Below the pieces are notes generated by a model, which did no database searches, was not told where the DNA came from, and saw only the letters and a program-made list of their open reading frames with translations. From assembly GCA_010279815.1 (NCBI GenBank), contig QEOQ01000515.1, positions 355,860 to 419,859 of the forward strand: DNA of 64,000 nt, given 5' to 3'. Position numbers and translations under genes: made by a program. Positions within the stretch are counted from its first letter, which is position 1; each line of letters opens with the position of its first letter. The DNA is from Brachionus plicatilis (lineage: Eukaryota; Rotifera; Eurotatoria; Ploima; Brachionidae). This document shows, one piece after another, positions 6,576 to 41,642 of the stretch.

Positions 6576-6604
6576 TAGAATTTTTGCTCAGACTATAATT
6601 AGAT

Positions 6605-7976
6605 TGTAGCTAAACCAATTACCATTATTGTCTGTAAAATACTGGAGAGCATAATTAAAGAACTAATGTTAATGCACTTATTGAAGAACGCTCTTTTTTC
6701 TAACGCTCAATACGGTTTCTTTCCAAAAAAGTCGTGCTCTACAAATTTACTAGAAACAATGGATATAATCTCAAATCTACTAGCCTCTGGTAATCAGATC
6801 GACATCGTATACACTGACTTTTCCAAGGCCTTTGACAAAGTTTCACATCGACTGTTACTCTACAAGTTATCAGCTTATGGATTCGAAGGAAAAATATTAG
6901 ATTGGGTGAATAATTTTTTAGATGGAAGAAAGCAAAGAGTTGTTCTTGGTAACGTTGAATCAGAATGGCTTGATGTTACTAGTGGTGTTCCGCAAGGATC
7001 GGTCCTTGGGTCTCTTCTTTTTTTTATTTTCATAAACGATTTGTCCGAATCTTTAATTAATGAAACAAAAGTCTATGCTGATGATATGAAAATTTTAGCA
7101 GCTGCTAACCATCTAAATGATAACTTATCTTTACAGCGCGATATAGATACTGTTTCAAGCTGGGCGATTACATGGGCGACTGATTTAAACGTAGAAAAGT
7201 GTAAAGTAATAAAAATCCTCAGTTTGACTACACAATTTTTAATAAATATGGAACATAATCATTATATAAAACAAAATTGGAAAAGGATTTGGGTGTGTTT
7301 TTTCAAAATGATCTAAAATGGGGTGCACATGTTAGCTACTCTTCTGGCAGAGCGAATAAGATTTTGGGAATGATTTGGAAAAATTTTAAATTTTTGGACG
7401 GCAATGTAGTTAAGTTATTGTATACCTCATTGGTAAGACCTATTATTGAATATGGAGTTAGTGTTTTGAATCCATACCTGAAAGAAGATAAGAAGGAATT
7501 AGAAAAAGTACAACGTAGAGCTACGAAGTTGATTCCAAAATTGCCTTTAAGAATCTTGAGTATGAAGAAAGATTGAATAGATTAAAACTTACCACTTTGA
7601 ATACGAGAAGAAGAAGAGGCAATTTGATTCAATTTTTTAAAATTGTAAACAGTCTAGAAACTGTTAAATTGGTAAGTGAAATCAGGTACGTTCAAAGAAA
7701 TAATTATATTTTGAGGGGTCATGCAAAGATGGTTACAAGAGAACTTTTAAAAATTGTCCATCACGGTTCAACTTTATCACAAACAGGGTTGTAAACGACT
7801 GGAACTGTTTACCAAAAAATGTTTTTGAAGCAAATTCATTAAATTCTTTCAAAGAAAGACTTGATGAATGGTTTATGGTACAGAATCAGGTGTGATTGCA
7901 AAGAACTGCCACAGCCTTACGGTTTAATTCGACTTGCTCGAGTCGCAGTTATTTTTACTACTACTACTACTACTAA
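6605..7976 (+). pseudogene. 5'-truncated LINE reverse transcriptase, frameshifted
   Basis: This is the C-terminal two thirds of a non-LTR retrotransposon RT. The 5' end is lost within the CKILESIIKELM region. The open part (6666-7316) keeps [10 protein letters not shown], the [10 protein letters not shown] motif and the catalytic YADD (around 7075). Frameshifts near 7210-7280 and 7570 move the thumb and C-terminal region into other frames (7277-7576, then 7573-7794). The expected RVVNDWN-type C-terminus continues past a further break after 7795. The 3' end carries a (TAC/ACT)n tail at about 7951-7976, a common LINE ending. It is an inactive copy, probably CR1/Jockey-like. Confidence 0.85.
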
Positions 7977-8303: not shown

Positions 8304-11300
8304 CTATAAAATTCTACAAACTAAACATTTTGGACTATTGGTATCTTGATCTCTAGGCACTGAGGAGCTTTGATTAATGGCACTTATTTGATTAGTGTTC
8401 TGAAAAATGCTATTTGGCACTGAAGACTCGTAGTGGTTAGCCCGACTACTTTTTAAAGATTCGATAAGTTTTTTTTTAGATTTTTTCTCATCTTTATTTA
8501 GATCAATATTCATAAGAAAATATGATGACGGATTGACATGTCTGGCGATCATGGCCACTATTTCATTATTTCGTTGTTCTCTATCAGCCACAATTCCGCA
8601 TCCACCGTGACCACCAACACCAAAATAATCCACATAAACCAACTGACTGAATATGAGGCCCATTCCACCTGGAGGCGGCCATGGAGTTGCTGTCAACATA
8701 ATCGGAACAATTGGTTTGCGCAACAAGTCCGCCAGGGCCATTTCACGATTGCAGTAATGTGAAACCACAAACTTGGGCGTTATGCAAGCCACAACCACTT
8801 TTGCATTCCGAATAGCCTCGTCTATTTTCTGATAGAGTAAATTCCCACCACCAATTTGTCCAATATCCATGAAACAATTAAATCCGGCTTTTTCCAAATG
8901 CTCCCTGATTTTCACAACTAGCTCTTGTGAGTCCCATTGATAGCTTATAAAAACCGAAGAATTAACTGTCTCTTTGTCTAAAATTAAATTTTTTTTTCAG
9001 TAAATTTATTTTTAAAATTTAGAATTTTTTTTTTAATAAATTTTTGTTTCATACAAAAAAACATACCTCTTTCATTATTTATTACCTTAATGACATCATC
9101 TCGGTTTATTTGCTCCAAATAATTAATTAAAAATTCAATTGTCAAATTTGTGTTGTCACTTGACATGATCCAGTCGCAAATCAGCTGCAGTGGAGGGTTA
9201 TCGCTTTGACTGAAGAAGCCAATGCGGCTTTTGTTATAGCCCAGAAGACGTGCCAGAGCCAGCCAGTCGTTTTCGTTCTGAACCACTTTGATTGTCTCAT
9301 CTTTGCTTGTTTTGAGCAATTTGGCCACATTTTTTACCCAGTTCGGCAGAGTGTTTTCTTCATAGTACATATTTTTGTCCGAAAATGATTTGACAGCGTT
9401 CAATACTGGACCTTTATGCACTTAAAAAAATTTTATTTTTTTTAAATATTTTTTTTATAAATTTTTTTCACAGAATCCGGCCTAATTATAACTGGGGTGA
9501 AGTTTTGACATTAGTTAAAAAATTAAAAAATAATTCATTTTTTCTAACTTAATATTTTAATTGAAATAAAGTTTTTTAGTACCTCAAATTTATTAAAATT
9601 TACCTCAAATTTAATAAAAGACTATTTTTTTATTAAAAAAGTAGCAAAATATAAAAAAAGTATTCAAATAAAAAAAAATTACATCAATTTAAAAAAAAAG
9701 AAAGCAATTTCATTATAAAACCGCAAAAAGTTAATACTCACCTCTAAAAATAAAAAAAATTAACAATTATCACAATAAAAATATCTTTTTTTTTCATAAT
9801 TAAGCCACATTTTTCAAAAGGATTACAAGTGTAATCATCAAATTGCAGTATGTGCAAGGCTAAAAAAATGTGCATACATTCATGCTATGGATTTACCAAT
9901 TCAACCGAATCGTAAACGTGGTGCCCCAGAAAAAAATAAACCAGCTCTAATAATACAACCATCAGATTTAGTTGGCGGTGGTGGAGATCCAAAAGGCTTC
10001 TCTTATGATGATGATGATTTAACCGAAGTTGTGCCTAATAATCAAAAAAAACAAAAAACATTCAATCAAGAATCTACTCAAAATAATGAATCTAAAACAT
10101 GTGAAAAATGTGGCTTAATTATGAAAAAAAAAGATATTTTTATTGTGATAATTGTTAATTTTTTTTATTTTTAGAGGTGAGTATTAACTTTTTGCGGTTT
10201 TATAATGAAATTGCTTTCTTTTTTTTTAAATTGATGTAATTTTTTTTTATTTGAATACTTTTTTTATATTTTGCTACTTTTTTAATAAAAAAATAGTCTT
10301 TTATTAAATTTGAGGTAAATTTTAATAAATTTGAGGTAAATTTTAATAAATTTGAGGTATTAAAAAACCGATAGCCATTTTAATTCAATTTTTGGATTAA
10401 AAAAAAAAGAATAATTATTATTATTTATTGACAAAAAAACTTGTATAGACCTTATAGGTCAAAAAGTTATAAAATAATAATAATTTCAAAATTAAATAAA
10501 ATAAATATAAAAGTAATTAAATTTGTTCAATTAAAGTTTTCATTAAAAAGAAAAGAATATAAGCAAAATTTACAAAAAAAAAGTTAATTAATTAATTGAA
10601 TATTTTTGATTTTAACTCATTAAGCAAGTCATTTCTGACATTGTCGAGTTGAGCCAACTATAGTTAAGTTTGGGTTTCATTTCGGATCTTTTGTTTGGAA
10701 TCATATAAGTTTTAAAGAGAATAAGTCATTTTTTAATTAATTAATTAATTAATCAACACTTTTTATTTATATGGTCATATTCTTTCTTTTCATCAAAATA
10801 TTGAAGCAGAAAAAAAGTTACTAAAAAAATGAGTTAACAAAATAACTAATTCATTTAATTAATTAACTCATGTCAAAACTTCACCCCAGTATAATTATAA
10901 GAGTAAACAAAATTATTATTTTTTTCTTTTTTCAAAATTATTATTCCTTTTTTTTGATATTTCTAAAGCCTTTGATAGGGTTTGGCATGAAGGTTTACTT
11001 TTTAAATTGATTAAAATAAATCCAACTCATTACTTGACTATCTGGATTAGATCCTTTTTAGACTCTAGGACATTTAAGGTAAATGTGAATGACCATCTGA
11101 GGGAAGAATATCAAATAACTGCAGGTGTTCCTCAAGGCTCAGTAATTAGTCCTCTTTTATTTAGTATATATATTAATGAAATCCCCAAAAGAAATAAAAC
11201 AAATAATGAATACTCTCTGCTTTTCGCAGATGATCTAGTAACATTCTTCATTTATAACAAAAAGGGTAATCTAGAAAATAAGATTAATAAATACACCAAC

Positions 11301-14300
11301 GAACTAGAACTATGGCTTATTAAATGGAAAATGAAGATATCAGTTGAAAAGTCGTGTTCAGTAGTCTTTTCTAGGTACAAAAAAGAGAGTGATAATCTAA
11401 ACTTATTAAATTGGTATTAAATTGGATTCTAAGTTAAACTTTAATATACTGGTAGACGAAATTAAAGAACGCTGCAATAAAAGATTAAATATTATTAAGA
11501 TATTGTCAAACAAAAAATGGGGTCTCAATCAAAACACACTAGGAAATTTATATAAATCTTTAGTCGGATCAATCTTAGACTATTCTTTTCCTTGCTTAAA
11601 TTCATTTTCAGAAAATAATATCAAAAAACTTCAAGCAATTCAGAATACAGCAGTCAGGTCTATTCTTAAGTTAAAATATGATACTCCCTCCAACATCGTG
11701 CATCATGAGGCTTTTAATAAACTAAAATTACTAACAGTCTCGAATCGGCTTTTTGAATTGAGTGAGAGATATGTTGGGACAGGACTGAGTCATTCTATTC
11801 CATTGGTTGAAAGACTGGTGAAGGAATACAAAGAAGGTTTCGAATCAAGATATATTGAATACCCAACTCCATTGTGTAATTGCTACCTTACTATTTCTTC
11901 TAATTTTCCTGAAATTTGAACTATTCAAACATGTGCCACATGTAACAATCTTTACCAATCTATGTCTTTTCAACTTTCATTTTTTTAGCTTATTTACTTT
12001 ATTTTGATTCTCTTTTTTATCTCATTTTATTAACTTTTATTTTATTTTTTTTTTTTTTATTTTACTTTTTAACTTATTCTGAAGGAGCTTTAGCTCGGTA
12101 CAGAAAACAAATAAATAAATAAAAATAATAATTTCTATTAAAAAAATTATTTTTCTAGAATTTTTTTTTTATTAAATTATAAAATTGTTACATGATATGT
12201 TTTGGATGGGAAACCAGCTTTGGTAAATGAGGGTCTTGACGCGTCGGTAATCACAATTAACAATCTAAAAGAAAAATTTTAATTTTAAATTAAGAGAAGA
12301 TTTTTTACATTATTGGTCAAGCATTCGTCTAGATTTAAAAAATGGATGCATTCGTTGTGAGAGCATAATTTTTGCTGATGTAGGTGGCACATTTTGCCAC
12401 AGTGGCATTGAACACAAGCGTTGAATTTGAGTCGTTTGACCCACATGTTTTTCAAGTCGATTAGTACAGTTTCCATAAAGTTGCGTACTTTGGCACATGA
12501 ATTTGGCACTGGCAAGGCATGCTCGCTTTCCTCGTCATCAATTCGAATAATCTGAATTTTTATTCGAGCGTATTTAATGGGCGCTAGCTCGACCACAAAA
12601 TCATGCTTTTCATCTAAATAAAATCTAGCTGTATTTGAGTACAATTTGACTGATTTGTTCACGTCTGATCCATTTTTCATCAATGTCCATCTGGCGGTTC
12701 TTGTAATTATACGATGAAATAAAATCTCTTTATGAAAAAAATAATAAAAACTTAAATGAATAAAATAAAATTAATTAAAATTATCTCAAGAATAAATTTA
12801 TTTTATTAAATGCTGGCAAATAACATGGTTTCATACCAGAGTTGTTTAAAAGTCCCAAAAAAAAGTCCAAGTTTCAAAGTCAATTTTTTAAATTTTTAAA
12901 TAAAATTTTTTTCTTTTTTTTTTTTTAATTTTTAAATTAATTTTTTTTAAATTAAAAAACTATTTTTTTTTAAATAATACATATATTAAATTAACTTAAA
13001 TTTTTATTTTTTTACCGGTTTTTTGGCCGCCCGTATATTTTAGAAAAACAAAAAAAAAGTCTTGACACGGACTTTTTTTTTGAAAAAAAAAATTAAAGTC
13101 TTTGGTGGGACTTTTGAAAAAAAAAGTCCGGACCTGGACTTGACTTGAGACTTGTGACTTTTAGACAACTCTGTTTCATACTTAAAAAAATTTTTTGTGA
13201 CAGAAAAAAAATCAAGATTTTTTCTCAAATGGATCCCCAAAAATTTTTCTTCATAATTTTATGGAAAAAATGAGAACTTTTCCTGAAATAACAAATGATT
13301 TCTGAAAAAAGTTTAAAAAAATTTTCTCATCACTTACAAAAAGCCACAAAGGAACAGACATAGAAAAAATTGATAATCATATAAAATAAAATAAATCAAT
13401 AAAAAGATTTTTTTTTAATTTAAATACTAACAAATATTTTTTTATTATTTGGAATTTTAACATTCAAACAAAATTTGCAATATCTCCGGTAAATTTGCGT
13501 AAAAATTTACATGAAAGTTAAATTTTAGATGATTTTAGACCGTAATTAGTTTATTCTTTTTGATACAATTAAATTCAAATATAATAGATGAAACATTGAA
13601 AAAATTGTTTCTTTAGATAAAGAAGTTAAATCTTTATTTTTTTTTTAATTTAAATAATAAAGAATATAATTTAACAAATAGATTTGAACAAGAAATTTTT
13701 CAAACTTGGTTCAAAATATCTAAATTTTTAAAATGAAAAATTTAAGAAAGTTTAAAAAATTTATTTGTTTCTGAAAATAACAAAACAAAATCGAAATCGA
13801 AGGCTAATTGAACAAAATTTTGAAAAAATTGGCCAAGAAAAGTTATTGAACTAGAAATTATAAATATTTTTAAAATAAAATTGATCTAATTATTGCACTG
13901 TGTGACAGCATGGCTGGTTATTTTGCTTTTTATGAATTTATGCCTCTAAAGTATTTAAGTTTTTAAAGTAAAAATTAAAAATTTAATAATTATTTTGATC
14001 ATGATCTTTAAAATTTGGTCATAAAATTCATTTTGCAAAAACTTATGCTTTCATTTATTTTTTTAAGAGTCTTTTTTGATGGACATAAAGTCGAAGTGTT
14101 CATACTTTTTCTAAAAATGTCGTTGTCCATTGTATTAACTGTAATAAAATAAAAATAAATACAGTGGTTCTACAAAAAACCCAGAATTGGTAAAATTACG
14201 AAAAATTATGTTATTTTACGTTATTCAAAACTGTAAATATTGACTGTTTTTCAAAATTTTGAAATGAATTTTTTGAAAAAATAAAAAAAGCTCTATATTT

Positions 14301-17300
14301 CGTACCGTTTAAAACAAAAAAAATCTTTTCAAATTTTGGAAAAACAGTCAATTTTTACAGTTTTCCTACCAAAAACCTAATTTATTTTAGCCTCAAACAT
14401 TTTGGAATACATTTACTAAAAATTACGTAATTTAATGTTATTTTACGTAATCTTACGTAAAATTACATTTCCTTACCCACTAATATCTAAGTAAGATTAC
14501 CTAAGTTGACCAAAACTTACGTAAAATAGCGTAATTTTACGTAATTGAACAAAAATTCCTTCTTATTTGATCAATTAAAATTAAAGTTAATACAATATCC
14601 TTAAAAAATACTTAGTGCAACATACATTGTTGCACATTATTTGCCTAAAAAAAAATCATTATTTAATTTTTTTTAGTAAATTAAATCAATTACCAATTTA
14701 AATCTAATTGATGTTGTATTTTTTTTTATCTTATTATGAGAAAAAATAATTTTAATTGCTACTTTATTTTACATTTGATGTAAATTTACGTAAAATTGCG
14801 AAATTTAGCACAATCTGCACTTTTTATAAAAGCATTGTATTTGAGTCTTACTTTGGATAACACAATGTGAGTATTGATTTTCTACTTAAAGTTTTAAAAT
14901 AAAGATTTTATGAGAATCAATTAAAGATGAATTGGAAAAAAAAATATTTTTTTTTAATTTAAAATATTAAAAATTTAATGTTTAATTAAAAAAAGAAATA
15001 AAAAAAAGTTAATTTCATAATTTAATGAAATTTTGCATTAATTAAGTTTTGATCATATGATCATGATTAACTTCAAGTTGCCTGTCATTGAACTGTATGT
15101 TAAAATTATTTAAAAATCAATATCAGTTATTTTTTTTTTTTAAGTTTAATTCTTAGTAGAACAGATCAAAGTTTGCTAAAAATATTTTAATTAAAAAATC
15201 TTTTTAAGCTCTGACTTTGACTTTGATTTGGCACTTTTAAAAAAATTTCACTCAAAAATTTACAATTTTAATCCAAAATAAAATAAAAATAAAAAGACAT
15301 TGTGAAATTTCATACAAAACTTCCAATACAAAAATTAAAAAATCTTATAACTTTTGTTCTAAAAGTCAAAAACTTGTTCTGTAAATGAAACAAAGTGAAA
15401 CAACTGTTGTTTCACCTTCTGCAGAAGTCTGCAAAATCTGTGCAAATTCTGCAAAATTGTACCCTATTTAAAAGTATTAAAAATAAAGCGGAATTTATTT
15501 GCCCAGATTTTGCAGACTTCTGCAGAAGGTGAACTTTGTTTCATTTACAGAACAAGTTTTTGACTTTTAGAACAAAAGTTATAAGATTTTTTAATTTTTG
15601 TATTGGAAGTTTTGTATGAAATTTCACGATGCCAAATAAAAATTCAACTTGCCTGTAAAAAATCCGCAAAAATCATAAAAAAACTCAACAACATGTACAT
15701 TATTAGCATCCAATCTGAGTCTATTTTTTTGGAATGAATTAATGCCAAAATCAGACACGTCCTCAATGAAACTACTTTCATTCATGGAGCTGTCACTGTT
15801 AAAATTTTGATTAGCATTAAATCTAATAATAGGGTTGTCATTGTTTTGGTTGTACTTAACAGTTGCCCGACTCGGCACCAAATACTCTCGGCAAATACTG
15901 AAATTTTCTTTAGCACCGGTCTTTTCACATATCAAGTCAAATTTTTTCATAAGACCCATCAGACCCGGCTTTTGGTTGATTTCATCCTTCCACAAAGCAT
16001 CCAGCAACCGTTCCTCTAAAATACCATGCTTGTCGAATTTTTCCCACAAATCAGACAACTTCGCACTCATTGCCAAGCTGGTCGCGGATGCGTACAAAAT
16101 TTTGTTAAAAATTTCTATCAACTGAAAAGGCCTTAGTATGATGGTGTTGCGCAAAAATATGTCATTTGCATTGCCATAGTATATTATGGTGCCCAGGTCA
16201 TTTAAAAAATTTAAACAAGTGCTCAACTCTTCTTGAGTGCGGATGTCCTTTTCGTGGGCCAATTCACATATTTGGGAAAGTGATGCATAGAAAAGACCTT
16301 TTTGCTTCAATTTGTCCAAGCTTTTTTCGAACTTCATCCATCTGACTGGCTGCTGTTCGCCCATGTAAGGTTCCTTGTAGGCAACTACTTCAATTAGTCT
16401 TTTTAATGAGTAGATATTGGAGTCGTTGGTGTACGAGTCACACTGGCATAAATCATCCAAAGGTATGAATGGTTCAATCACGTGATTAGCGTAGATTTTG
16501 GTAGAAATAAATTCTTTCAAGTAGTCGAACTTGCGGTTTATTTCTTGGTCGCTCAGGTTGTTTTTGTTAGTACCCACTATTATTATAGGTGGCAAAAGAG
16601 TCGAGTATTTGAAGTTGATTACCAAATTTTGGTCAAGTCTTATTTTAGAGTGAATGTCACTTGCCGAAGTTGATTCTGGCACTTTGGCCGTGTGACTGTG
16701 TATGCTCTTGAGCAAAATGTCAAAGTATTCAATGTAAGTCATTTGATGATTGTTACGATGAGAAAATGAACATGAATAAACTGGTTCATTGAAGTCCTTG
16801 GTCAAGTCAAAGCACACCAAATAAATGGCTCTTGACGAATACAGAATTTGATATGTTTGGTCGGCTTGGTAAAGAATTTTAAATTTTATTTTGGTTAAAA
16901 TTTTTAATTTTGATTTTATTCAAAAAATTTGGAAATTTTCATCTATTGACAATAAAAAAAAAATCCTTTAAAAAACTTTTTATCCTTTAAAAACTTAAAA
17001 ACTAAAAAGTCTCTTAAAAAAAAAGAATGTACTTTTTGTACTTTTAAAAAAATAATTAAAAAAAAATATTTTCCATTAATTTTAATTAAGATTTTAGTCT
17101 AGAATAGAGTCCTTTTTATCCTTTTTGACTTTTTCTAGTCAGAAAGAATGTTCTATTTGTACTTTTTAGAATTTATATTTAGCCTTGGTTTAGAATAGAA
17201 ATCCTTTTTTAAATTTTAATTAAAATTTATTATTAAGATCTTTGCATAGAAAAGAGGTACTTTTTATTCCCTTTGTATCTTTCCCTTAATTCACAAAACC

Positions 17301-20300
17301 CGAATTCCCTAAAGCTCCTTTTATATTTATTTTGTTAAAACGAAAATAACCCATTAATAAACCCTAATTTGACAAAGCTAGACTAGAAAAAGTCAAAAAG
17401 GATAAAAAGGACGTCTATTCTAGACCAAGGCTTAAAATAAATTTTTAAAAGTACAAAAAGAACATCCTTTATGGGTAGAACCTAACTTTGACTTTGACTT
17501 AAAATAAAAAGTACAAAAAGTTTAAAAAGAATGTAACTACATCTATTGTTGACAAAAAGAAAATTTACGTAAAATAAAGTAAATTTACGATCGTAAAATT
17601 ACGTAATTTTACGTAATTTTTCGTTAATTTACTTTGGCCAAAAAATGGCCGAATTTTTGTAAAATTTGGTAAATTTTCAAAAAAAAAAAATTTCAGAGTT
17701 TCTATGGCCTTTTTTGACAAAAAGAAAATTTACGTAAAATCCACTTGTCAAATCAGTACTGTAAATAAAATTTTTTGAAACTGATACTTTTTATTAAAAC
17801 TCATCCAAATTTATTAAAATTGCATCTCAATTAAAATTTATTAATTTTCTAATTTATTTGATAAGTATTGTCTGAAGATTTTTATTTAATTAATTTTATT
17901 TTTTTTGAATTAGATGTTTTGTTTTTAATAGATGTAGTTTTTATTCAATTAGATATTTTTTTATTAGAAAAGATGATTTTTAGAGTCTAGATTGAATTTT
18001 TTATTTATCTTTAAAAGGGATTCTGTCAATGCATTATAAATAGCAAATTTTAATAATAAAATTTAGAGAAATTAAATTTAAAAAAAAACTTTTCTATTTT
18101 TATCTCATTATATTTATCGCTTTATCTCACTTAGGAGTTGTTTGAGTATATCCTCAAAATTTAATAAACACATTTTACTTAAAACTTTTCTTAATAATAT
18201 TCAACACACTTTAATTATTTTATTATTTTCTTAAACTTTTAAACTCATTTTATATAGTCTGTTGTTCAGATTAAAAAAAAAACTTTTACCAATTTTTTTT
18301 TAAATTGCAATTAATGGGTTGGCGTTTTTGTTGCACCAAATAAGTATTTTCCAAAATTTTAAAATTAAAAATGAATATTTAAAATTTCAGTGTTTAGTTT
18401 TTTTTCAATTTCAGACTTTTTTAAACATCAATTAATAAACTTATAAAAAAACAAAACTTTAGAACTTTTTGATTTCAATTTTTTAAATTCATGTTTTTTT
18501 TATAAGATTAAATTAGAGATTTTATTTTTTAATCTGAGAAACACACTTTAAAAATGAGCTAAAGAGTTAAAAAAAAACATAAAAAGTATATTGAAAAATA
18601 TTGAAAAAGGGTAATTTTTGGGCGTTTGGGAAAGTTAGTACTAATTAAAAGTCTAAAAAAGTCTAAAATATTTTCTTTCTTTAAGAAATTGAAATTAAAA
18701 ACAAAAAATGCTCAAAAAAATTTCAACATCCTATGCACTTTTATTCTTAGCCAAAACAGATAAAAAAATAATTATTTTAATTTGATTATTGATTGAATTA
18801 TTAAAGGGAAATTAAAAATTTTTAATTTAGCTTCATAAAGGTGCAACATAGGATATAATTTTTAAAAAAATATTTTTTCAGTTTTAAAGTATCAAAGAAA
18901 AGGAAATATTTTTGACTGTATTTCAAAATGCCTCTTTTTAAAAAAAAAAAGCAAGTCATCTTATTTTTGATTTATTTATTATTTAAATGTTTATTGTATA
19001 AAAAAGAGTTATGGGTGACAAAAGTGACCTACAAACAGAAAAAAATAAAAATATCTTACCTATACTCGAGATGGTAAGTGAAAGACGATTTTTGGTAATT
19101 TTCTCCAATTCATTTGGTTCGTATTCTTCCAAAGACTTAACAGTTATTGTACTTCCCATCGATTTAAATTTAATAAGTTTAATCTCATTCAAAACAACTT
19201 GTTTGTAAAAAAGAAGCAAAATTTTGCAGCACGGCAAATGACTGTATAGACTACTTTCGAATTCTTCAATGGCAATTTTTAAAATTAAATCCTGATTGAA
19301 ACTTAAATTGTCTTTGTCGGTCAAAATTGATTGTATTCTGTCAAAAATAGAATTTTTATATAATTCACGGTAAATATTTACCGCAATTTCTCTATAGCTA
19401 TTTCCACTCGGATCTTGTTTCATATCATCTAGTAAATTTTAAAAAATATAATTTTAAATTTTTTAATAAATAAAAATATTAAAATTTTTTAATTAAAAAA
19501 AAAAAATAAATTTTTTTAAATTTTTTACTTGGATCTATATCGGATTGATTTAGCTCATCCAATTCTTCAATTTGGTATAAATCATCATCTGAATCATTGC
19601 TTTTGTCCGAATCTTGCTCATCACTGGTCTCACTATTTGCCCAATAATCGTCAATCGAATCGACAGAATTCGATTTTTCCAATCTATACCTAGTCCTGTT
19701 GGTGTGATAGAGCGAGTCATTTGATTTTGATCTGCTCATGGTTGAATTAATTTTCTTAGTGTATCTTCCAGTTTTGAGCTGCCACACGGACTCTTCTATT
19801 TTGACCCTAAATGAAGCCGATAAACCAAATCTCATTTTTTGCTTTTGACTTAAAAAATTTAAAAAAAAAATTTTTTATTTTTTAACATTTTTATTACTTT
19901 GAGTTAACCAGGCAGTATTTAAGATTTTTTTTGGCATCATTGTCTTGGCCGACAATTAGGAGCATAGTTTTGTAAATTGGCTTAGATCCCCCAGTTACAC
20001 AAGCACTGTGAAAGTTGTTGACTGCGTCAAGACCTCTTTTCTTTATCTCATAGGGCGTTTCGTCCGAGGGCAAAAATTGGACAGTGCCAGTTGAACCATA
20101 TATGTCCAGAAGGAGCCATAATTTTTGAACACTAGTTGCTATTGTATCAAAAAGCGTAGCTTTGACAACATTGTTTATTTCTAGATGTAGACAGTTGTTT
20201 TTGTCCAGAACTATGGTGAGTCTATTGCCGGGTTTTACATAGGACCTTTTGACACATGTGATCCAATACGAGTCAGTGTTGCACAGGGTCGGATAGGAAA

Positions 20301-20535
20301 AATCGGCAAGTTCACTGGAGAGTAGAGTGGATGGGTTTTTAGATGTTAGACCGATGCGTAAATTGCCAGTCCATGTGCTTTGGGGTATTTTTTCCACCAT
20401 GAATGTGACGCGCTGAAGTTGGGTCAGCGGACTGCTGGAAAATGTAATGCCTTGGCAAAAACCAGTGGAGCGTTTGGCTTGGGAAAAATCAGTTGATAAT
20501 TCTATGTTCTTTCCATGAACCGAGTGAAAATACAT
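8304..20535 (-). CDS. NHR-ROC-COR-Death-TIR multidomain signalling protein
   Basis: Eight exons join with consistent phases: 20535-19898, 19848-19529, 19428-19060, 16864-15653, 12727-12309, 12264-12192, 9420-9067 and 8977-8304, giving 1352 residues. Residues 1-170 are a Neuralized homology repeat (FHSVHGKNIEL, LRIGLTSKNP). Residues 190-550 are a ROC GTPase-like domain. The COR domain runs to about 1000 (YLVPS near the middle, LFHRIITRTARW in the second half). Residues 1050-1127 are a Death domain (WLALARLLGY, DWI). Residues 1137-1290 are a TIR domain (VFISYQWDSQ, CFMDIGQIGGG, CNREMALAD). The ROC motifs are degenerate: GQDNDAKK for the P-loop, SIADQ for DxxGQ, TNKNN for the fourth motif. TIR Glu1207 lies at the NADase glutamate position. 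The tail ends CRIL. The ATG is preceded by an in-frame stop. A role in innate immune or cell-death signalling is inference. Confidence 0.82.
9491..10890. mobile_element. Foldback DNA element inside intron 6 of the TIR gene
   Basis: Perfect 20-bp terminal inverted repeats, ACTGGGGTGAAGTTTTGACA, bound 1400 bp. Flanks are CTAATTATA (left) and ATAATTATA (right), an 8-of-9 match that fits a 9-bp target duplication of MULE type or a shifted 8-bp one. A second, much longer inverted repeat lies inside: about 9585-9817 is the reverse complement of about 10105-10355. This means the left arm carries an antisense copy of the 3' end of the internal zinc-finger ORF. The region 10360-10870 has no counterpart on the left. 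The host gene is on the minus strand and the ORF on the plus strand. Confidence 0.65.
9887..10174 (+). pseudogene. Zinc-finger ORF carried by the foldback element
   Basis: The frame begins MDLPIQPNRKRGAPEKNKPA, continues through a glycine/aspartate-rich stretch, and reaches KTCEKCGLIMKKK. After a homopolymer-rich stretch the open frame becomes hydrophobic nonsense, while another frame supplies a second CxxC pair and an immediate stop. A single-base slip in the A or T run is the simplest explanation. The RG(R)P(K)K basic stretch followed by a CxxC knuckle recalls C-terminal tails of MULE/FLYWCH-type transposase-related proteins. A related tail occurs at 58.6 kb. Function unknown. Confidence 0.45.
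10944..12125 (+). pseudogene. 5'-truncated LINE reverse transcriptase in intron 6
   Basis: The copy starts abruptly at the DISKAFDRVWH motif of the RT palm. It keeps AGVPQGSVISPLLF and FADD in the frame 11007-11420, then shifts frame at about 11420 and continues in 11422-11919 with the thumb and C-terminal region (KLQAIQNTAVRSIL). The 3' end has TTTAGCTCGGTACAGAAAAC followed by (AAATA)n near 12110-12125. It lacks the endonuclease and first ORF, so it is a dead-on-arrival insertion. It differs in sequence and tail from the 6.6-kb copy, so it belongs to a different family. Confidence 0.85.
12837..13173. mobile_element. hAT-type MITE with perfect 8-bp target duplication
   Basis: TTTCATAC occurs at 12829-12836 and again at 13174-13181, directly outside a 337-bp element. 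The element has inverted ends CAGAGTTGTTTAAAAGTC and GACTTTTAGACAACTCTG. A CAGAG terminus with an 8-bp duplication is the hAT superfamily signature. The interior is rich in GTCCAAG/CTTGGAC-like words and encodes nothing. It sits in intron 4 of the TIR gene. Related ends start at about 52114 and 63693. Confidence 0.8.
13182..15294. other. Intron 4 sequence of the TIR gene, AT-rich
   Basis: No coding exon was recognised here on either strand. The stretch around 14160-14560 is crowded with TTACGTAA-type words and begins TACAGTGGTTCTAC, which resembles the ends of the Tc1-related elements elsewhere in the window. A full element with two ends could not be delimited. Confidence 0.5.
15295..15633. 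mobile_element. MITE adjoining the ROC-COR exon
   Basis: The ends read GACATTGTGAAATTTCAT and ATGAAATTTCACGATGCC. Arms pair for over 100 bp (CTTCCAATACAAAAATTAAA against its complement; TTCTGCAGAAGTCTGCAAAA against its complement). The end word GGCATYGTGAA is shared with the element in the first HADHB intron, so both belong to one family. The right end lies 19 bp from the splice donor of the ROC-COR exon (15653), so any open reading through it is intronic. Confidence 0.7.
15651..15652 (-). other. GC-AG splice donor of the ROC-COR exon
   Basis: On the minus strand the exon ends ACAG and the intron begins GCAAGT, the consensus of GC-AG introns. This junction leaves one base that fits the two bases after the acceptor at 12728. 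The alternative GT four bases further on gives an inconsistent phase with that acceptor. Protein similarity across the junction (COR, FFT then EILFHRII) supports the choice. Confidence 0.65.
16865..19059. other. Intron 3 of the TIR gene with decayed repeats
   Basis: No exon is seen. Words such as CCTTTTTATCCTTTTTGACT near 17110 recur inverted near 17385-17400, marking an old foldback element. From about 17550 to 17761 there is a Tc1-type end: TTACGTAA words followed by CTTGTCAAATCAGTACTG and TA, the same terminus as at 61774. The rest is low-complexity A+T. Confidence 0.55.
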
Positions 20536-21302
20536 TCTTGAAAAAATTAGAATTTTATTCCCGATACTTCTGATTTAAGGTTTGTTTTTTATTCAGCTTA
20601 TAATAATTTATACCTTTGTCAAGGTTCTTAGTGTTTTACTTTAATTTAAGGTCTGGTTCGAACATAATTTCAGGATGTCATTTGATAAAATCAAAAAAAA
20701 AACGATTTTTGTTTAAAAATATTAAAAATGAAAGATTACGTTTGTTTTATAAAATTTATTTTTTTTTTGTTAAATATTTTAATATTTGTTAATAGCTGAT
20801 TTTAAGAAAGATGCTTTTAAAAAGCTAAATTAACTACCTATTTTTCACTTCCTCTAGGAAATAAATAAAATTTTTTGGAATAAAAACAAAATTTTGATTT
20901 AGATTTAAATTTCTAATTTTCAGGAACAATTTTATTTTTTTAATATTTTAAATTTCTAAATCCAATAAAACAAAAAATTATCAACTTTTATTAAAATTTT
21001 AAAATAAATTGTTTAATATTTTTAAATATTTCTATTTTTGAAAAAAAAGACAAAATAAAATAAAGAGACAGACATTTTTTTTCTGACAAAAAACAAGACA
21101 TTAGAAAAAAATTTCAAGAACTATTATTTAACAAAATAATAAGATATTTTTTTTATTTAATCAAGCATTTAAAGGGATATTTAATTAAATCTAATACAAA
21201 CACAAAAATTTAATTAGTGATTCTTTTTGACATTAACTAATTTTTTTGGCTTTTACAAAAATAAAAAAAAGCTTGTTTATCAAGTATTTAAAAATTATCA
21301 AA
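20536..21302. other. Spacer between the TIR gene start and an UNC93 gene end
   Basis: About 0.77 kb of AT-rich DNA separates the first codon of the TIR gene from the stop codon of the first UNC93-like gene, both on the minus strand. The TIR-gene promoter should lie here. No specific motif can be supported by eye. Confidence 0.4.
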
Positions 21303-22897
21303 TTAAAATTTCTCATCTTTTGCTTTTAAATTATGTCTAATCTCGAGATAGATGTAAGAAAATATGCCACTAATGGTAATGGCAATGAAAACAAAAATCT
21401 TAATTTGTGTGCAAAAGTATACAGAGAGGACAGATCCTAAGACCAGTCCGATTGTTTCAAAGATGATGGCAGCGCTGTATGCCGAAGGATTTGAGGGAAA
21501 AAAAATTCCAAAAATGGCTCGCACTTGGGAGGTGGCGAGGCAGTCCGTAAAAGCGAGCGAGAGTGCCATCAAGAAAATTATGTAAATTCCTGAATCTGGA
21601 TTCGGTGTCCATGACAACATGAATACCTGAAGAATCAGAGACTTCATCAGCATGAGCACTATTGTTGTCTGCAAGCCGATGTACTTCACCAATCGGCCGG
21701 ATATCAGCGAAAACAAAGAAGCTGCCAGCCCGAATGTAATGCTTACCCAGCCGATAAAATTTACATTTTTCAAGCAAGAAACAAAACTCTTGAAAAAAAA
21801 ATTAAATTTTTAAATTAAATAAAAAATTGTTAAATTTCTAAATTACTCGATGAAATTCGAACCACATAAAAGTAAGTTCGTAGCCAAGAAATACGGCAAT
21901 GGGCATGAGCAACCATATTTTAAGCTGTTTGAACAGATCAAACAAATTTTGAAATTCATTTTTAAATTTAAAAACTTAAATTAAAATTTATTTTTATTTT
22001 ATTAAAGAATTTAAAAAAAAAAATTTTTTTTACTTATTTTTTGAATTCCAATTTTGCCGCGCTCAATTTTGTTCATGTTTTCGTCATATTTTAGATCATC
22101 TACAAAAAAAAATGCGATCAAAATGGACAAAATGCATGCACCATTGATAGTAGCACACAGTCCGTAAACTGATGAAACCGACGGTTTGGAAGCCGATTCG
22201 GGCAATTTTGTACCAGGACAATTGTTTACACCGCAACTACTTGCGTAGTTAAATGTAGAATTGACTGGCAGGTCTTTTAGCTTCAAAATGGTACCGATCC
22301 AGATGGCGCCAAGAACATAATCTTTATGATTAAAATAAAAATAAAAAAAAATCAAGAGTATTAATTTTTTGTTACTAAAAAAAAAAATTGATCCAAAGGT
22401 GCCGAATAGCAAGGTCTGTGCATGCATGAAGGTGACATTTTTTATCAATGAGTATTTTTTGCTCAAAACAGTGAAGTAAATTCCAAGAGTGGTCCAAGAA
22501 AGACTGTTGGCAAAGCCGGACAATATTGAGCCAGGTATCAGAGTTGACCATGCTGGAAAAGTGTTTGCTATAAAAAATGCCAAATAGCAAGTTTGGGCGA
22601 GCATGAGGGTGAACTTAAAGCCGATCAGTTCTATGATCACTTGTGGCCATACTAGACCGGTCAAAAATTGCACCAAATAGACTATGGCTTGACTGCCGTT
22701 GCCAAGACTGCCGTCCTGGTTTAGGACACCTTACAGAGGACATTTATTCAAATGTTTGAAATTATTCTATATTTACTTGATATCATTGCGATTACATCGA
22801 AAGATGCAAAAATTAGGATAAAACAAATATTAAAAGCGATGAAATTTTTATATACTGTTTGTTTTTCATTTAGCCTCAAACATTTTTGGAAGAACAT
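21303..22897 (-). CDS. UNC93-like major facilitator family protein, copy 1
   Basis: Five exons join in phase: 22897-22777, 22729-22376, 22321-22034, 21974-21847 and 21788-21303, giving 458 residues, close to UNC93A length. Exon 1 starts MFFQKCLRLNEKQ and leads into the first membrane helix. The next exon begins SVLNQDGSLGNGS, matching the family's SSLN segment after helix 1. The helices that follow include a LIPGSILSGFANSLSW stretch. A large loop carries NYASSCGVNNCPG, like the CGxxxCP loop of UNC93A. About eleven hydrophobic segments can be counted. Family members are polytopic membrane proteins linked to ion-channel regulation or receptor trafficking; the substrate here is unknown. Introns are 48-58 bp. 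The gene is repeated in full at 31929-33523. Confidence 0.88.
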
Positions 22898-25223
22898 TTC
22901 TAAAATTAGTGCTCAAAAGTAAATTGAAGTGAATTTATACTCCGAGCAATAAAGCCAAATAGTGGATTAAACTTTAGTTTGTGTGACATTTAAATTAGAC
23001 TAATTTGCGAATATGGTTTTTTAAAATTTAATAAAATATTTTTAACCTTAAAATTGGATATGATTTTAAAATTGTTTAGATAATCCTTCAGAGACAAACA
23101 AGCTTTGAGAAACTTTGTTTGTTTTCATACGAGCGGAACCCTTAAAATTTAACACCATATCAAAGTTGTGTAACAAGTAGAATCATGGTGGTTGCCAAAC
23201 ATTATTATATAAACAGTTCTAATATTTTTTAAATTAGATAAAAAATCTTTTTTTTTTTTTTTTAAATTCTTAATTTTTGGTAGCATGTTTGTTTATGGAT
23301 AATGGATTTCAATTGAAATTAACTAAATAAATTACGCAATCAAAGGTAATAGAAATATCTATTCAACTTTTTATCTTTAATAAAACGAATTCATGCTGAT
23401 AAAACGTGAGAATTTGTTAAAAGACATTAATTAATTGTAATAATGAAAATTAGTTTTAAATAAATCAAAAAATTTTTAAAAATTCAAATCAGTTTAGAAA
23501 TTTTTTGTTTTTCTTAAATTAAAATAAAAATTAAAAATAAAACAATTAATCGCTTTTTTAATTTAAGATGGTATCGATTAAATTACTTTGAAAAATTGAG
23601 TAAAATTATAATTAAAAAATTAAGAAGTTGAATAAGAAAAAGCTTCAACTCTGTGAATAAAACATTTAAAAAATAAGAGCATAAAGTTCATTTAAAGTAA
23701 ATGCTAAAAAATACCTTATCAAAATAGAATAAAATAATTACCTTGATTTAAAGGAGACTAAAAAGTAAACATGGTTTTTCACTTTTTGTTTTTTGCTTCA
23801 ATTTACGTAAATTAACAGAGACAATAAAGTATGAATGTATTGGTCTCAAAGTCTAGCTACCACTGTTGAGTATTTAATAAAGATTAAGAATTTGTTTTAA
23901 ATATTTATTCTATAAAGTAAAAGTGAAATAAAAGACAATCAATAATGAGAAAAAAATTTGATTTATATTCAAGTTATTATTAGTAAGAATAAGGTATTAA
24001 AATAGACATTAAAAAATAGCAATAAAACTAGAAATTAATTAAAACAATCATATAAAAATAATAGGTGTTTTAAATTTGATTAATATTCATTATTCTTTAC
24101 TAATAGATTCTTTGCAAAAGAATATTGATGGCCAAATATTAGATAATTTTTGAAATTTTTCCCCAATTTTGAATCAAATTTTATTTTGTAAAAATGGGTA
24201 AAATAGTAGATAAAGTAATAAACTGAAAAGAAAAAATATTCGATCAATAAAAATAAAGTTCCGCTTCAATTAAAAGAATTTTTGATTTTTTTAAAATTAA
24301 TTTAAAATTTTTTTTCTTCTAAATTGACTCTTTTAAGCTTTGTCTCAACAGCTTAAGATTTGAAAAATATTATTTAATTTTTCCTGTTAGTTAATTAATT
24401 ACAAATAAAATAATAATTTTTAAAAAAAATTTATGTAAAGCAAGGTAAATTTGCTTTTTTTTTTTCATGAATTCAATATGGTATATCTGTATATTGAATA
24501 TCATTGTTTTATTAAAAAGTTTGTTTAAAAGAAAAACTTATTTTTAAAATTGTTTTAATTTTCATGTATTTTTATTAGCGCTTTGTAATGTTGTGAATCA
24601 AACATAACCTTTCAGTGCTATCTTAGGAATTTAGCTTCCTTCAGTATTTTGATACGATGTGAGAAAAGTTAACTCTTTAAATATGTGTTGAATTTTTAAC
24701 ATTTATTGTAAATATTTCATATTTTAAGGTGAAAATTAAAATCTTATATTTGAAATTAATAAATTGTTGCTAAAAAAAAATTTTTTTTTTAGAGATAATT
24801 TTAATAATGCTAAAACCATTTTTAACGATAATTTTGTTTAACAACAATTAATAGTATAAAGTAAAAAATAACTAATTTAGTAAATTATAAAAGTATAAAT
24901 TTTTGGGTCTCAATAAAAAAAATATTACAAAATATTTAATACTAACAATTATTACAAGAAGAAGAAGATAAATTAACGTGTAACTTTGAGATGTTGATTA
25001 ACATTGAGACTTTAGCTTTGCTCTGAAGACCGCAATGTCAATTTAACACTTTTCGATATAAAATTTTTTTTTTATCAACTAATTTATCTCTCTAAAAAAG
25101 GTTATTAAATTTTAAATATTGAAAAATAAAAAAAATTTTTTTGCAAAATAAATATTTTATTTCAAAGACAAGCAGTGACAAATTTGGTTTTTGAACTTTA
25201 AATTTGAACTTTAACTTCCTTCA

Positions 25224-27837: not shown

Positions 27838-30800
27838 GAGTAGTTTAAAAATTATTCTTGGGTATAATTATTTTTATTATAAGAAAAATTCGAACAATTG
27901 AATATAAAAATTTAAAATCCTCCATTTTTTAATTTGAACTTACTAATTAAAATTTTAATACTTTAAAAAAAGAAAAATAAATATATATTTCAAAAATTTC
28001 AATGGCTGTTCATCAACAGATGGACCTTAGCTTTCTGCAAGAGACAAATTGGCAAAGGCTTCCTTCAGCTACGGCTGAAGTCGTCAAAAACAACCATAAT
28101 TGGCTCTCAAAAATAACCAAATGCATGCAAGTTCTTGTCCAAATCGAAACTTTGGAAAAAGAAAACGAGTCCCAAAAAACGACAATCGTTACGTTGAGCA
28201 AACTTGTTGGCACTATAAATCAAACTAATGACCAATCGGCAATTGAGAATGCATCTCTCAACCGGGCAAATTTGGTAGCTGGTAACTCACACCAGAATGA
28301 GAAAGCGGCCGTCATAATGGCAACAGTGGCAACCGAGGTAAGGAGAAAGGAGGAGAGAGCTCAGAACGTGATTGCTGCAGTGCCAGTGAACCTGTATAAA
28401 GAGGATGAGGAGATTATTCTGGCTTAAAAACTTGCGGTCGCAATTGGGGTTCCGGAGACAATAGCTAAGAAAGCACGATGTTTAAGAAAAAAACGGCTAT
28501 TCGGAATCAAGAATCAACTGGATCCAACAACGAGCGAGTACTGTTCGTCGTTGAAATTGAAAGCGTCAGTGCCAGGTTGGACATGCTAGTCAAAAGCAAA
28601 AAACTCCGGAATTCTGAAGAATGGAAGAATGTTTACATCATCTTAAGATTTCACGCCGTCAGAGCGTTTAGCACAAAGAAAACTTCGGTGAGAACGGGAT
28701 CGAAGAAACATAAACTGACCGGAACAGCAACAGTAAACGGACGAATTGTCAAGTAGAAAAATTGCGAAGACAATAAGAAGAGATTCTGGGGTATTATAAA
28801 TGGTGAGCTGAGACTTATTTTATCTGTAGTGCTGACTGGAATGACCATCGCCTCATTTGGTCCTAAATTGCCATCAAAAGAAAAGAATTTACCTTCTTCA
28901 CATGTCTTATTCTAATATCTAAATAGTTCAAATGAAAAAGTTCGATCAGTTCCAAAATTGTCATCATCAATCTATGTATCATGCATCCTCCAGAACAGTT
29001 ACTCTGATGAGTCGAACTACAACTCCGCTGTTTCGTCATCTTCATCTTCTCCTTCGTGTGAAACAGAATCTGAACCTTTGAATGCTCTATCTAACAGCTC
29101 TTCATCTAAAATGCTCTGTCCCATACCACAATCTACATATGCAGGAAGCATCAGCTTTAGGTATACCAATGCTACAAGCTTAAATGACAAAATGCCAATG
29201 CTTAAAACGATAGCAGCAAGTTTGACGCCAAGTATCATCGGCATCGCGGAGACCTGGTTTGAAGAGAGTTCGGTTGCCAAGATGGACAGCAATCAGCTTT
29301 TTAGAAAAGGTCGTTCAGGCGACAAGAGAGGCGGAGAAGTTTGCTTGTATATAAAGTTGTGCTATGACACCTACAGGACGTCAGAAGTGAGTCTTCTGGA
29401 TCTCAGTTGTGAGCAGATATGGGTCACTTTAACAATCGAAAATGAGAAACCATTTTTAGTTGAATACATCTATAGGCCTCCAGATCAAATTTCCAGCATT
29501 TCCCTAAGCGATTCGGACACTGCCAAAGCCACCTCACTTGAATTCACGACTGACATATTACGTCAATGCCTTTAGATATCACTGCAGTATGAGCTTTCAG
29601 CTTCATTCTAAAGCAGCACGTTCGCAAAGTTTCGACAGCAGAGCACTACATTGGCGAAGCGGTGACTTTGCCGCTTTGAATTAGGACTTCAAAAATCATG
29701 ATTGACCATAACGTATATCAGAGAAATGGGTACGTCAAAGATTTGTACTTGGATTTCTTACACATTTTCCGCGAAGCCGCCAAATTATTCGTCAAAAGAC
29801 GGCGGATCCGAACGCTAAACACCAAGCCACCGTGGTGGAATCCTGAGATTGCTTCACTGGTTCGCCAATAAAGGTGAAATTTTATCCGTAAATGTATCGA
29901 CAATCATTGTGAGCAGCTAGCGAGCAAGCACAGAGACTTATGCAAACGGGTAAAGTACATTGTGAAGAGGACAATCATTAAGTACGAGTTAAAGCTCGCG
30001 CAAGCTTCGAAAACAAATCCAAAGCTAATAAACTCTTGAAGCTAATGAACCGGCACTTTTCTTCAAGAGAATGCAAAGCAGCTTTGATGGATATGAATAA
30101 CCAAATCATTCCAGACAAAGAAGGCATTTGCGATAGACTTAACTCTTTCTTCTTATCGGTGTTTGAGCAACCAACCCTGAGAGAAGTCGTACAAACCGCT
30201 GAGTCGAATTTCAAAGTGAGAGGTAAAACTGATCCGTGTTTTTTAAATGAGGACGTCGTTACTCCTGACATTGTATTGAAAAAACTTAGGATTTTAAACA
30301 GTGATAAGTCAGCTGGAGTGGATCAGGTCAACACACACGCTCTGAAAATGTGCGCTGAGTCGCTAGCCGGACCACTTTCCTTTGTCTTCAAGCAGTCTTT
30401 GATCTTAACGGAAGTGCTTGCTGATTGGAAAATTGCTAATGTATCACCAATACATAAAAAGGATAGCAGAACTATTGTAATCAACTATCGTCCTGTCTCT
30501 CTAACCTCCGTTCCTTTCAAAGTGTTAGAGTCGCTAATTAAGGATTATATCGTCAAGCATCTTGAGAAGAACAAGCTCATCACGGATAAACAGCATGGTT
30601 TCATGGCTCACAAGGCTTGTGTTACCAATCTTTTAGAAACAATGGATTTCTTGACAAACTGCTTGAGTCAAAGGCAGCCGGCGGATGTCATCTATTTGGA
30701 CTTTGAGAAAGCATTTGACAAAGTGTCGCATGAACTGCTACTTGTGAAACTAGCAGCAAATGGTCTTCAAGATTTACTCATAAAGTGGATCCGCTGTTTC

Positions 30801-31680
30801 CTAAGCGATCGCAAACAGCGTGTAGTGATAGGTGAAGTATTTTCTGATTGGGTGCCAGTCACGAGCGGCGTACCACAAGGATCAGTGCTTGGTCCTCTTC
30901 TCTTCATCATCTTTATCAATGATATGCCTGACCTTTGCAGCTCACTTTGCAAACTAATTTCAACTTAGAGAAGTGTGTTGAAATGCATTTTGGAGCAAAC
31001 AACAGGCGTCATGACTATAAGCTTGGAGGTCACACTCTAGCAAAGACAACTAAAGAACGCGATCTCGGAATCATCAACACCAGCGATCTTAAGTCAAGCG
31101 AACAGGCTAAGCGAGCAGCCGCAAGAGCAACGATGGTAGCAAGTCGAATAAGACTCACTTTCTAGTACTTCTCTTTAAAGCTAGTAGATCTCCTTTTTAA
31201 GTCATTTGTTCGCACCAATCTCGAATTTGCCCTTGGAGCCTGGAATCCTTATCGACGAAGTGATATAGATGTCCTGGAGCAAGCCCAGCGACGATTCTCG
31301 AAACTAGTACCAGAACTGAAGGATAAACCATGCGTCGAGAGAAGAGAGGCTCTTGGTTGGAGTCCCCTAGAAGAGAGACGCAGGCGTGGTGATCTCATCC
31401 GACAACAGAAAATTCAGCATGGTCATGATCGGGTGACATTCATAAATGGGGATAAAAAGCTGGCTTCGGACATTCTAGAAAGCCCGGCAGGGAACACATA
31501 AGAACTTGCCATAAGGCTATCGAGCGACAGCTGATCCGCAATTGTGGAGTGAGACACAACTTTTTCACTAACCGAACAGCAGGAAACAGGAACACGCTGG
31601 ATGCGGTGACAAAATGTGTCAGCAATTCAAACATTTTTAAAAAAAGAATCGACAAGCTACTTAGATGAAAAATTTATCTA
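27838..31680 (+). pseudogene. Degenerate near-full-length LINE between the UNC93 copies
   Basis: Order: a leader of about 160 bp shared with 25655-25780; ORF1 remnant 28002-28427, continued in other frames to about 28756; endonuclease-like region 28958-29575 (FRYTNATSLNDKMPM, IAETWFEES, GGEVCLYI); and RT 30036-30968 ([56 protein letters not shown]). The segment that should hold the catalytic FADD/YADD is missing: LCSSLCKL runs directly into NFNLEKC. Thumb and C-terminal pieces continue to about 31660. It is an inactive element, non-LTR of CR1/Jockey type, with much higher GC than host DNA. Confidence 0.85.
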
Positions 31681-31928
31681 ATAATACTTTGATAAATTTT
31701 GATATTTTTCTTGAATCTAAAAATAGTTTATTTAGAACAGTGTAAAATGATAGTTATTTTAAAATATTTATTAGAAAATTATATAAAAATATGTAAAATA
31801 AGTTACCTAAAAATAGCTTATTTTAATAAAAAATCGGCCATTGGCAGTTAAAGTGGGGCGTCTACGTGCGCCACTGCTTTTCAAATAATAAAAAGAAGCT
31901 TGTTTATCAAGTTTTAATAATTATTAAA

Positions 31929-33523: not shown

Positions 33524-34278
33524 TTCTAAAATTAGTGCTCAAAAGTAAATTGAAGTGAATTTATACTGCTCTTATTATTTTATCATATTATATTATATTA
33601 TACTAAATTATATTATTTTTTATTATATTTTAATTATTTTATTATTTATTGCTCTTATTATTTGGCTTTATTGCAATTAGTTAGTTATTATAAAATATTT
33701 TTAACCTTAAAATTGGATATGATTTTAAAATTGTTTAGATAATCCTTCAGAAGCAAACATGCTTTGAAAAACTATGTTTGTTTTCATACGAGTGGAACCT
33801 TTAAAATTTAACACCATATCAAAGTTGTGTAACAAGTACAATCATGGTGGTTGTCAAACATTATTATATAAACAGTTCTAATATTTTTAGATTAGATAAA
33901 ATTTTTTTTTTTTTTTTAATTCTTAATTTTTGGTTGCATGTTTGTTTATGGATAATGGATTTTAATTTAAATAAACTATATAAATTACACAATGAAAGGT
34001 AATACAAATTTCTATTCAACTTTTTATCTTTAATAAAACGAATTCATGCTTATAAAACGTGAGGATTTGTTATGTGACATTAATTAATTGTAATAATAAA
34101 AATTAGTTTTAAAAAAATCAAAAAATTTTTGAAAATTCAAATCAGTTTAGAAATTTTTTTGTTTTTCTTAAATTAAAATAAAAATTAGACAATTACCTAA
34201 TTAGAATAAAAGTTTTTAAATTTTTTAATATTCTTTTCTGTTCTTTTTATCATTTTGTACTGAATTTCACAAAACAAT

Positions 34279-41504: not shown

Positions 41505-41642
41505 AATTGAAATCTAAATGACTTTATTAAATATTCATAATGTTAAAAAAGAAAATTATTAATTACATTCTCATTAAATTTTAATTTTCTAACACTTTTT
41601 ATTTTACTGAAAATTTTGTCAAAAATAACTAAAATAAAAAAA

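Follow-up and report, generated by a model that had tools for sequence, protein, structure and literature searches.

A rotifer member of the NHR-Roc-COR-Death-TIR Roco family with an altered Roc P-loop and a CaaX-like C-terminal end

An eight-exon gene and its protein

The 64,000-nucleotide stretch of the rotifer Brachionus plicatilis analysed here (contig QEOQ01000515.1 of GenBank assembly GCA_010279815.1, positions 355,860 to 419,859 of the forward strand; hereafter the window) carries on its minus strand, at 8304..20535, one gene of eight exons; the reading phase matches at every one of the seven junctions, and the joined exons encode a protein of 1352 residues followed by a stop codon. An earlier note on this DNA had described eight exons, seven matching junctions and a protein of 1352 residues, and rebuilding the gene from the sequence gave the same length. 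Exon 1 (19898..20535; residues 1-213) contains the start codon, the Neuralized repeat (NHR) and the altered P-loop of a Roc domain; exons 2 (19529..19848; residues 213-320) and 3 (19060..19428; residues 320-443) tentatively supply the inner Roc region; and exon 4 (15653..16864; residues 443-847) encodes the late part of Roc and COR-A. Exon 5 (12309..12727; residues 847-986) encodes the COR-B region and most of a Cys/His cluster, exon 6 (12192..12264; residues 987-1011) the end of that cluster and a conserved tail, exon 7 (9067..9420; residues 1011-1129) the Death domain, and exon 8 (8304..8977; residues 1129-1352 and the stop) the TIR domain, a variable linker and a C-terminal box. Intron 4 has a GC donor in the classical context AG/GCAAGT (first intron base 15652), and the remaining six introns are GT-AG; GC content is 29-42% in the exons and 3-24% in the introns.

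Pfam matches above the curated cut-offs identify Neuralized (residues 3-155; E = 2.7e-32), COR-A (615-766; 2.9e-14), Death (1060-1126; 1e-6) and TIR_2 (1137-1247; 1.5e-22) in the 1352-residue protein. A family profile made with the window protein left out was compared with all 3359 six-frame stop-to-stop segments of the window of at least 12 residues, and matched only the frames of exons 1, 4, 5, 6, 7 and 8 (E = 5.3e-64, 2.3e-92, 9.4e-53, 1.1e-7, 1.5e-33 and 9.8e-91, respectively). Exons 2 and 3 scored no better than shuffles with the same profile, and pairwise comparisons with eight relatives agreed: out of 500 shuffles, 74 to 421 equalled exon 2 and 45 to 426 equalled exon 3. We conclude that the gene as a unit is secure, with residues 213-443 placed by open frames and phase alone.

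Between COR and Death lies intron 6 (9421..12191, minus strand; 2771 bases), which is largely a transposon-like stretch with inverted ends. Its transposon-like unit at 9491-10890 has inverted ends (9491-9527 and 10854-10890; 92% over 37 bases) and an inner inverted repeat (246 bases, 98%); a 124-residue frame inside the unit had no Pfam match, and frames resembling reverse transcriptase at 10863-11919, on the plus strand, were judged by eye. The length of the intron, together with the separate Death-TIR proteins of other animals, would fit two genes, NHR-Roc-COR and Death-TIR, divided at this point. However, exons 6 and 7 join in phase across an intron that is mostly transposon-like, all five domains stand in one protein in most relatives kept as family, and relatives annotated as single proteins align continuously through the COR-Death junction. 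We rejected the two-gene split because relatives run across this junction, and regard it as highly improbable; the single gene that the earlier note had drawn across the 2.8-kb intron holds.

The family and its members

Searches with the window protein, with a protein of Amphiura (P0002) and with a bdelloid protein (P0059) gave 3, 108 and 80 matches, respectively, the P0002 search having scored only the 7984 candidates that shared most words with the query. From 145 proteins fetched, 80 were kept as family, so that motif counts refer to 81 rows with the window protein. Left out of the counts were an NHR-kinase protein (P0064), two proteins of kinase-SH3 type (P0122 and P0123), other Rocos, and 17 non-Roco Death-TIR proteins (P0003, P0125-P0131, P0133, P0135 and P0137-P0143); an unnamed SH3-Roc-COR-TIR protein with no NHR by Pfam (P0090) was kept, which makes the counts slightly weaker.

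The same domain order occurs in echinoderms, hemichordates, amphioxus, molluscs, an annelid, nemerteans, chelicerates, a flatworm and bdelloid rotifers, and the kept relatives also include Priapulus, ticks, horseshoe crabs, a mite, Macrostomum and the bdelloids Adineta, Rotaria and Didymodactylos. A search for this order in other rotifers and spiralians, which the earlier note had proposed, thus finds it in bdelloids, molluscs, the annelid, nemerteans and the flatworm. All five domains were found by Pfam in 56 of the 80 kept relatives (hand count); many of the others are partial models, Priapulus has no Death match, and several chelicerates have no Roc match. No vertebrate, insect or nematode name appears among the listed relatives, which does not prove absence from those groups. 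In a tree of 28 chosen rows the window protein is sister to the bdelloid Didymodactylos with support of 100/100, both rows being unusual in composition; the tree thereby groups it with family members and speaks for a rotifer source.

The earlier note knew of no named family combining all five domains in this order. That statement is overturned by the 56 relatives, by the name 'neuralized PATS1' borne by one relative, and by a passage of a 2016 paper that describes the NHR-Roc-COR-Death-TIR combination in oyster and centipede (PMC5094078). A figure legend on Aplysia TIR/COR proteins names all five domains, and the same source has a MyD88-like protein with a Roco domain, LOC101861518 (PMC9334734); judging from the legend, the five domains probably stand in one protein in Aplysia. 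In the window protein NHR, COR, Death and TIR stand in order in one chain, and the Cys/His cluster and a CaaX-like end are shared with the family. We conclude that the window protein belongs, as its rotifer representative, to an ancient Roco family of bilaterians, NHR-Roc-COR-Death-TIR or 'neuralized PATS1', and that this family is an old, widespread and little studied group of invertebrate immune-type signalling proteins, whose five-part layout is not new.

The proteins of 'neuralized PATS1' type (P0005 of Saccoglossus and its relatives, those of oyster and centipede, and probably LOC101861518 of Aplysia) have the same five domains in the same order, the Cys/His cluster and the CaaX-like end, and align with it end to end, but they keep the P-loop in 71 of 75 rows, whereas the window protein has lost it and probably switch II as well. 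Anemone NG3 (kinase-SH3-Roc-COR-Death-TIR; P0122 and P0123) shares the Roc-COR-Death-TIR part, but has a kinase and SH3 where the window protein has NHR, and P0122 and P0123 do not have a CaaX-like end. LRRK2 and LRRK1 share the Roc-COR fold, as modelled in the relative P0059: modelled whole (predicted local distance difference test score, pLDDT, 78.3), this bdelloid protein resembles structures of LRRK1, Chlorobium Roco and LRRK2. The flanking domains of LRRK2, LRRK1 and a further Roco protein, DAPK1, differ from those of the window protein, in which the GTPase motif is lost. MyD88, compared as a solved structure only, has Death followed by TIR as the window protein does by Pfam, but the window protein has NHR-Roc-COR in front and a CaaX-like end behind.

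The genome (102.9 Mb in 173 contigs) yielded no second full copy of the gene in a search with P0110, which gave at least 30 matches; among the matches listed, six lie in the window (exons 1, 4, 5 twice, 7 and 8), and those elsewhere are COR-only (5) or TIR-only (19). Outside this gene, the Neuralized family is represented in the genome by one other frame, on contig 3. Among the open-licence full texts searched, we found no paper on what the family does, nor any on the CaaX-like end, the Cys/His cluster or the lost GTPase motif; 'pseudoGTPase' with 'Roco' returned no paper, and 'CAAX' with 'TIR domain' no title on the family.

The Roc domain of the rotifer protein

The five domains claimed in the earlier note are borne out by Pfam for Neuralized, COR-A, Death and TIR_2. 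Roc, the fifth, was seen by a family profile only: Pfam gave neither a Roc nor a Ras match on the 1352-residue protein, and a Roc profile made from the 80 relatives matched residues 185-612 with E = 3.9e-33 (best of 200 shuffles, 0.21). We take the Roc domain to be present by descent but eroded, because the family profile matches it while Pfam Roc does not. (A Pfam match to SH3_2 at residues 1037-1080 fell below the cut-off and was dropped.)

The P-loop position (residues 196-204; 19924..19950, minus strand) reads GQDNDAKKN, where relatives mostly read GQDRVGKTS. The P-loop columns are filled in 75 of the 81 aligned rows, and GxxxxGK[ST] is matched in 71 of these 75; the four that depart from it are the window protein, the freshwater mussel proteins P0045 and P0060 (G to E) and P0116 of the horseshoe crab Tachypleus. 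The DxxG motif is kept in 75 of 77 rows, with the window and Tachypleus as exceptions, and the end of exon 3 and the start of exon 4 together read SSIADQ in place of the WDFAGQ of relatives. The P-loop motif is intact in all six bdelloid rows (P0059 and P0110-P0114); no other monogonont protein was recognised in the relatives' lists. We conclude, as far as the sequence tells, that the P-loop is lost in this rotifer copy; the earlier note had mentioned neither this loss nor the CaaX-like end. With its Roc-COR tandem the window protein is a Roco by descent, and the GTPase label should not be used for it, because its P-loop does not read GxxxxGK[ST].

The loss of switch II is less sure than that of the P-loop, because exons 2 and 3 have no homology support. 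The Roc domain could be degenerate at switch II in appearance only, exons 2 and 3 being mis-modelled and the true exon missed, with nucleotide binding perhaps partly remaining. That these two exons score like shuffles, and that the exon 3/4 junction gives SSIADQ where WDxxGQ is expected, speak for such an error; but the P-loop change sits in exon 1, for which support is good. When the minus-strand frames of 19500-16800 were searched with a profile, the exon 4 frame alone exceeded the threshold, and scanning 19897-16865 for motifs returned only NIKG at 17327. We dismissed the NIKG as a missed switch II exon, and consider a mis-modelled switch II rather unlikely.

Comparison with seven non-rotifer members places the erosion within Roc. 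Identity over the whole domain is 23% for the window protein and 31% for Adineta, a figure that for the window takes in exons 2 and 3, which have no homology support; those exons do not enter into the P-loop part (31% vs 38%) or into most of the later part (27% vs 38%). For the other domains the values for window and Adineta are 34% and 25% (NHR), 41% and 36% (COR), 43% and 43% (Death) and 55% and 56% (TIR). An eroded Roc domain, together with an intron enlarged by transposon-like sequence, could also mark a decaying pseudogene. However, every exon is open and in phase, the domains other than Roc are conserved about as in Adineta or better, neither the C-terminal box nor the Cys/His cluster is damaged, and no second full copy was found in the genome; decay is in our judgement very unlikely. 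Because the Roc motif was lost while the remaining domains stayed constrained, the comparison favours a pseudoGTPase that still works over a gene in decay.

Motif loss in Roc may have occurred several times within the family. Tachypleus P0116 is without both P-loop and DxxG, mussel proteins P0045 and P0060 are altered, and the model of Tetranychus P0073 is without the middle of Roc. Elsewhere in the B. plicatilis genome, contig 54 holds an LRR-Roc frame with intact GLGGAGKTS and DFAGQ adjoining a COR-TIR frame; the two loci concerned, L017 (G000:C54:235400-239900) and its neighbour L033 (G000:C54:239800-243500), contain frames resembling one LRR-Roc-COR-TIR gene.

C-terminal features, neighbouring genes and proposed role

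The protein ends in CLVCRIL (8307..8327, minus strand), which comprises a CaaX-like box, CRIL (residues 1349-1352), with an aliphatic a2 residue, and a further Cys at residue 1346. A Cys at position -4 occurs in 71 of the 81 rows, among them the window protein. These 71 boxed rows close with IL in 49, LL in 9, II in 5, VL in 4, ML in 2 and IV in 2, and the further Cys lies at -7 in 65 and at -6 in 6. In the 70 boxed relatives the mean fraction of the majority residue is 0.64 over the last ten columns and 0.22 over the preceding linker. A Cys at -4 is also present in 15 of the 17 non-Roco Death-TIR proteins, and such an end may be a shared trait of the Death-TIR proteins of bilaterians. A separate 160-residue TIR frame in the same genome (L001, 1426-1908) likewise has a CaaX-like terminus, CIFF. 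Where the last residue of a CaaX box is Leu, the usual rule favours geranylgeranyl. With a prenylation-like box present in 71 of 81 rows, this Death-TIR family offers a concrete and testable hypothesis of membrane attachment.

After COR, a cluster of nine Cys and His residues (C954, C956, C960, H963, C968, C973, H975, C982 and C990; 12253..12407, minus strand) spans exons 5 and 6, with the intron at 12265-12308 inside it and C990 in exon 6. Each residue is identical in 74 to 80 of the 80 relatives, and the core pattern of the cluster occurs in 69 of the 80 relatives and in 0 of the 65 other fetched proteins; a shorter CPC...H...C form is present in three of seven other Rocos inspected (P0064, P0067 and P0082). 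Pfam gave no name to the cluster in the window protein. That it forms a zinc site is a guess.

In the TIR domain, Glu 1207 (8742..8744, minus strand) aligns with the catalytic Glu of SARM1 (HKE), and a Glu occupies this position in 76 of 78 rows. Sequence comparison with solved structures places SARM1 and AbTIR among the best TIR matches (E about 1e-4), and the closest Foldseek matches of a model of exon 8 (pLDDT 79.1) are SARM1 and plant RPP1 chains. Alignment of the same model with VIA-align gave scores that lie close together (SPARTA 16.7, TRR-2 16.3, SARM1 16.3 and MyD88 15.1). SARM1 and other NAD-cleaving TIR proteins share the TIR fold and the aligned Glu with the window protein but differ from it in their sensing and assembly parts. 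The conserved Glu 1207 permits a putative NAD+ cleavage, and the TIR domain might act mainly as an enzyme, with clustering at the membrane leading to NAD+ cleavage as in SARM1 and with Death serving assembly only. The aligned Glu and the nearness to SARM1 and AbTIR in sequence and to SARM1 chains in structure speak for such an enzyme, although the same TIR domain stands behind a Death domain as in MyD88 and scores nearly as close to MyD88; we consider a mainly enzymatic TIR possible but doubtful.

The remainder of the window contains several other genes and repeats. Just upstream, on the same strand, an UNC-93-like gene (21249-22941; PF05978, E = 3.1e-6) has a copy 10.6 kb away at 31876-33567, with 99.6% identity over 1694 bases. 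UNC93B1 assists Toll receptors in vertebrates; the UNC-93-like neighbour beside a Death-TIR gene is probably there by chance. A thiolase gene lies at 37366-38631 (PF00108, 2.8e-70), and a DEG/ENaC-type channel gene at 40836-43338 (PF00858, 1.4e-70) has an inverted copy at 52445-54953 (98.0% over 2509 bases). A reverse transcriptase frame occupies 29982-30968 (PF00078, 6.7e-24), a piece at 6603-7895 resembles reverse transcriptase by eye only, as do those in intron 6, and within intron 4 a stretch of 334 bases (15298-15631) matches its own reverse complement at 82.6%, forming a long palindrome. A run of unknown bases lies at about 61060-61690.

We propose, with a slight preference over other readings, that the window protein is a prenyl-anchored Roco adaptor or receptor in which NHR acts as the sensor, COR brings about dimerisation and Death-TIR gives the output, GTP control having been dropped in this rotifer; the output might be that of an adaptor or of an enzyme. 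According to this proposal, prenylation of the C-terminal CaaX box, with geranylgeranyl favoured by the final Leu, would tether the protein to the cytoplasmic face of a membrane, perhaps with acylation of Cys 1346 as a further aid. NHR would bind a ligand or peptide, COR would dimerise the protein, and the Death-TIR tail would then assemble with Death or TIR partners in a MyD88-like manner. In most relatives Roc could gate signalling with GTP; in this rotifer Roc would be a nucleotide-independent scaffold, because the P-loop is gone, and switching would be left to NHR and COR. The earlier note's suggestion that sensing by NHR could be coupled to an output through TIR is plausible though putative.

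An immune role receives indirect support from the company of domains, which includes Death and TIR in the order seen in MyD88, from a clam transcript and from the presence of the protein in bdelloids and Macrostomum. Neuralized repeats are placed, in an excerpt on SPRY-like domains, among those prominent in eukaryotic immunity (PMC8195603). A table of the focal response of a clam to the parasite QPX lists a 'neuralized pats1' transcript as down 758.9-fold (PMC4769524). Passages of a further study report no Toll-like receptors (TLRs) in Adineta vaga, Rotaria tardigrada and Macrostomum lignano, and call immunity without TLRs unexplained (PMC8609888); Adineta, Rotaria and Macrostomum possess an NHR-Roc-COR-Death-TIR protein.

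Several observations weigh against the prenyl-anchored adaptor or receptor. Ten of the 81 rows have no box (P0012, P0013, P0050, P0052, P0053, P0059, P0063, P0065, P0083 and P0090), the majority being models that are short, partial or oddly terminated, and CaaX prenylation is a prediction only. A modelling error in exons 2 and 3 could explain part of the low Roc identity. The TIR domain is as similar to NAD-cleaving TIRs as to adaptor TIRs. The clam transcript is a single line of a table, and its direction is down, not up (PMC4769524). Finally, one TLR is given for the monogonont Epiphanes senta in the same passages that deal with bdelloids (PMC8609888), so that monogononts need not be without Toll signalling.

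A broader and more speculative reading, which we think unlikely but worth stating, is that an ancient bilaterian geranylgeranylated Roco-Death-TIR hub was kept in animals for which a survey reported no Toll-like receptors (bdelloids and Macrostomum) and became, in this rotifer, a GTP-independent pseudoGTPase scaffold. If true, such a hub could be a missing TIR input of animals without Toll receptors. Apart from this reading, the natural loss of the P-loop makes it possible to ask whether a Roco protein depends on GTP switching at all.

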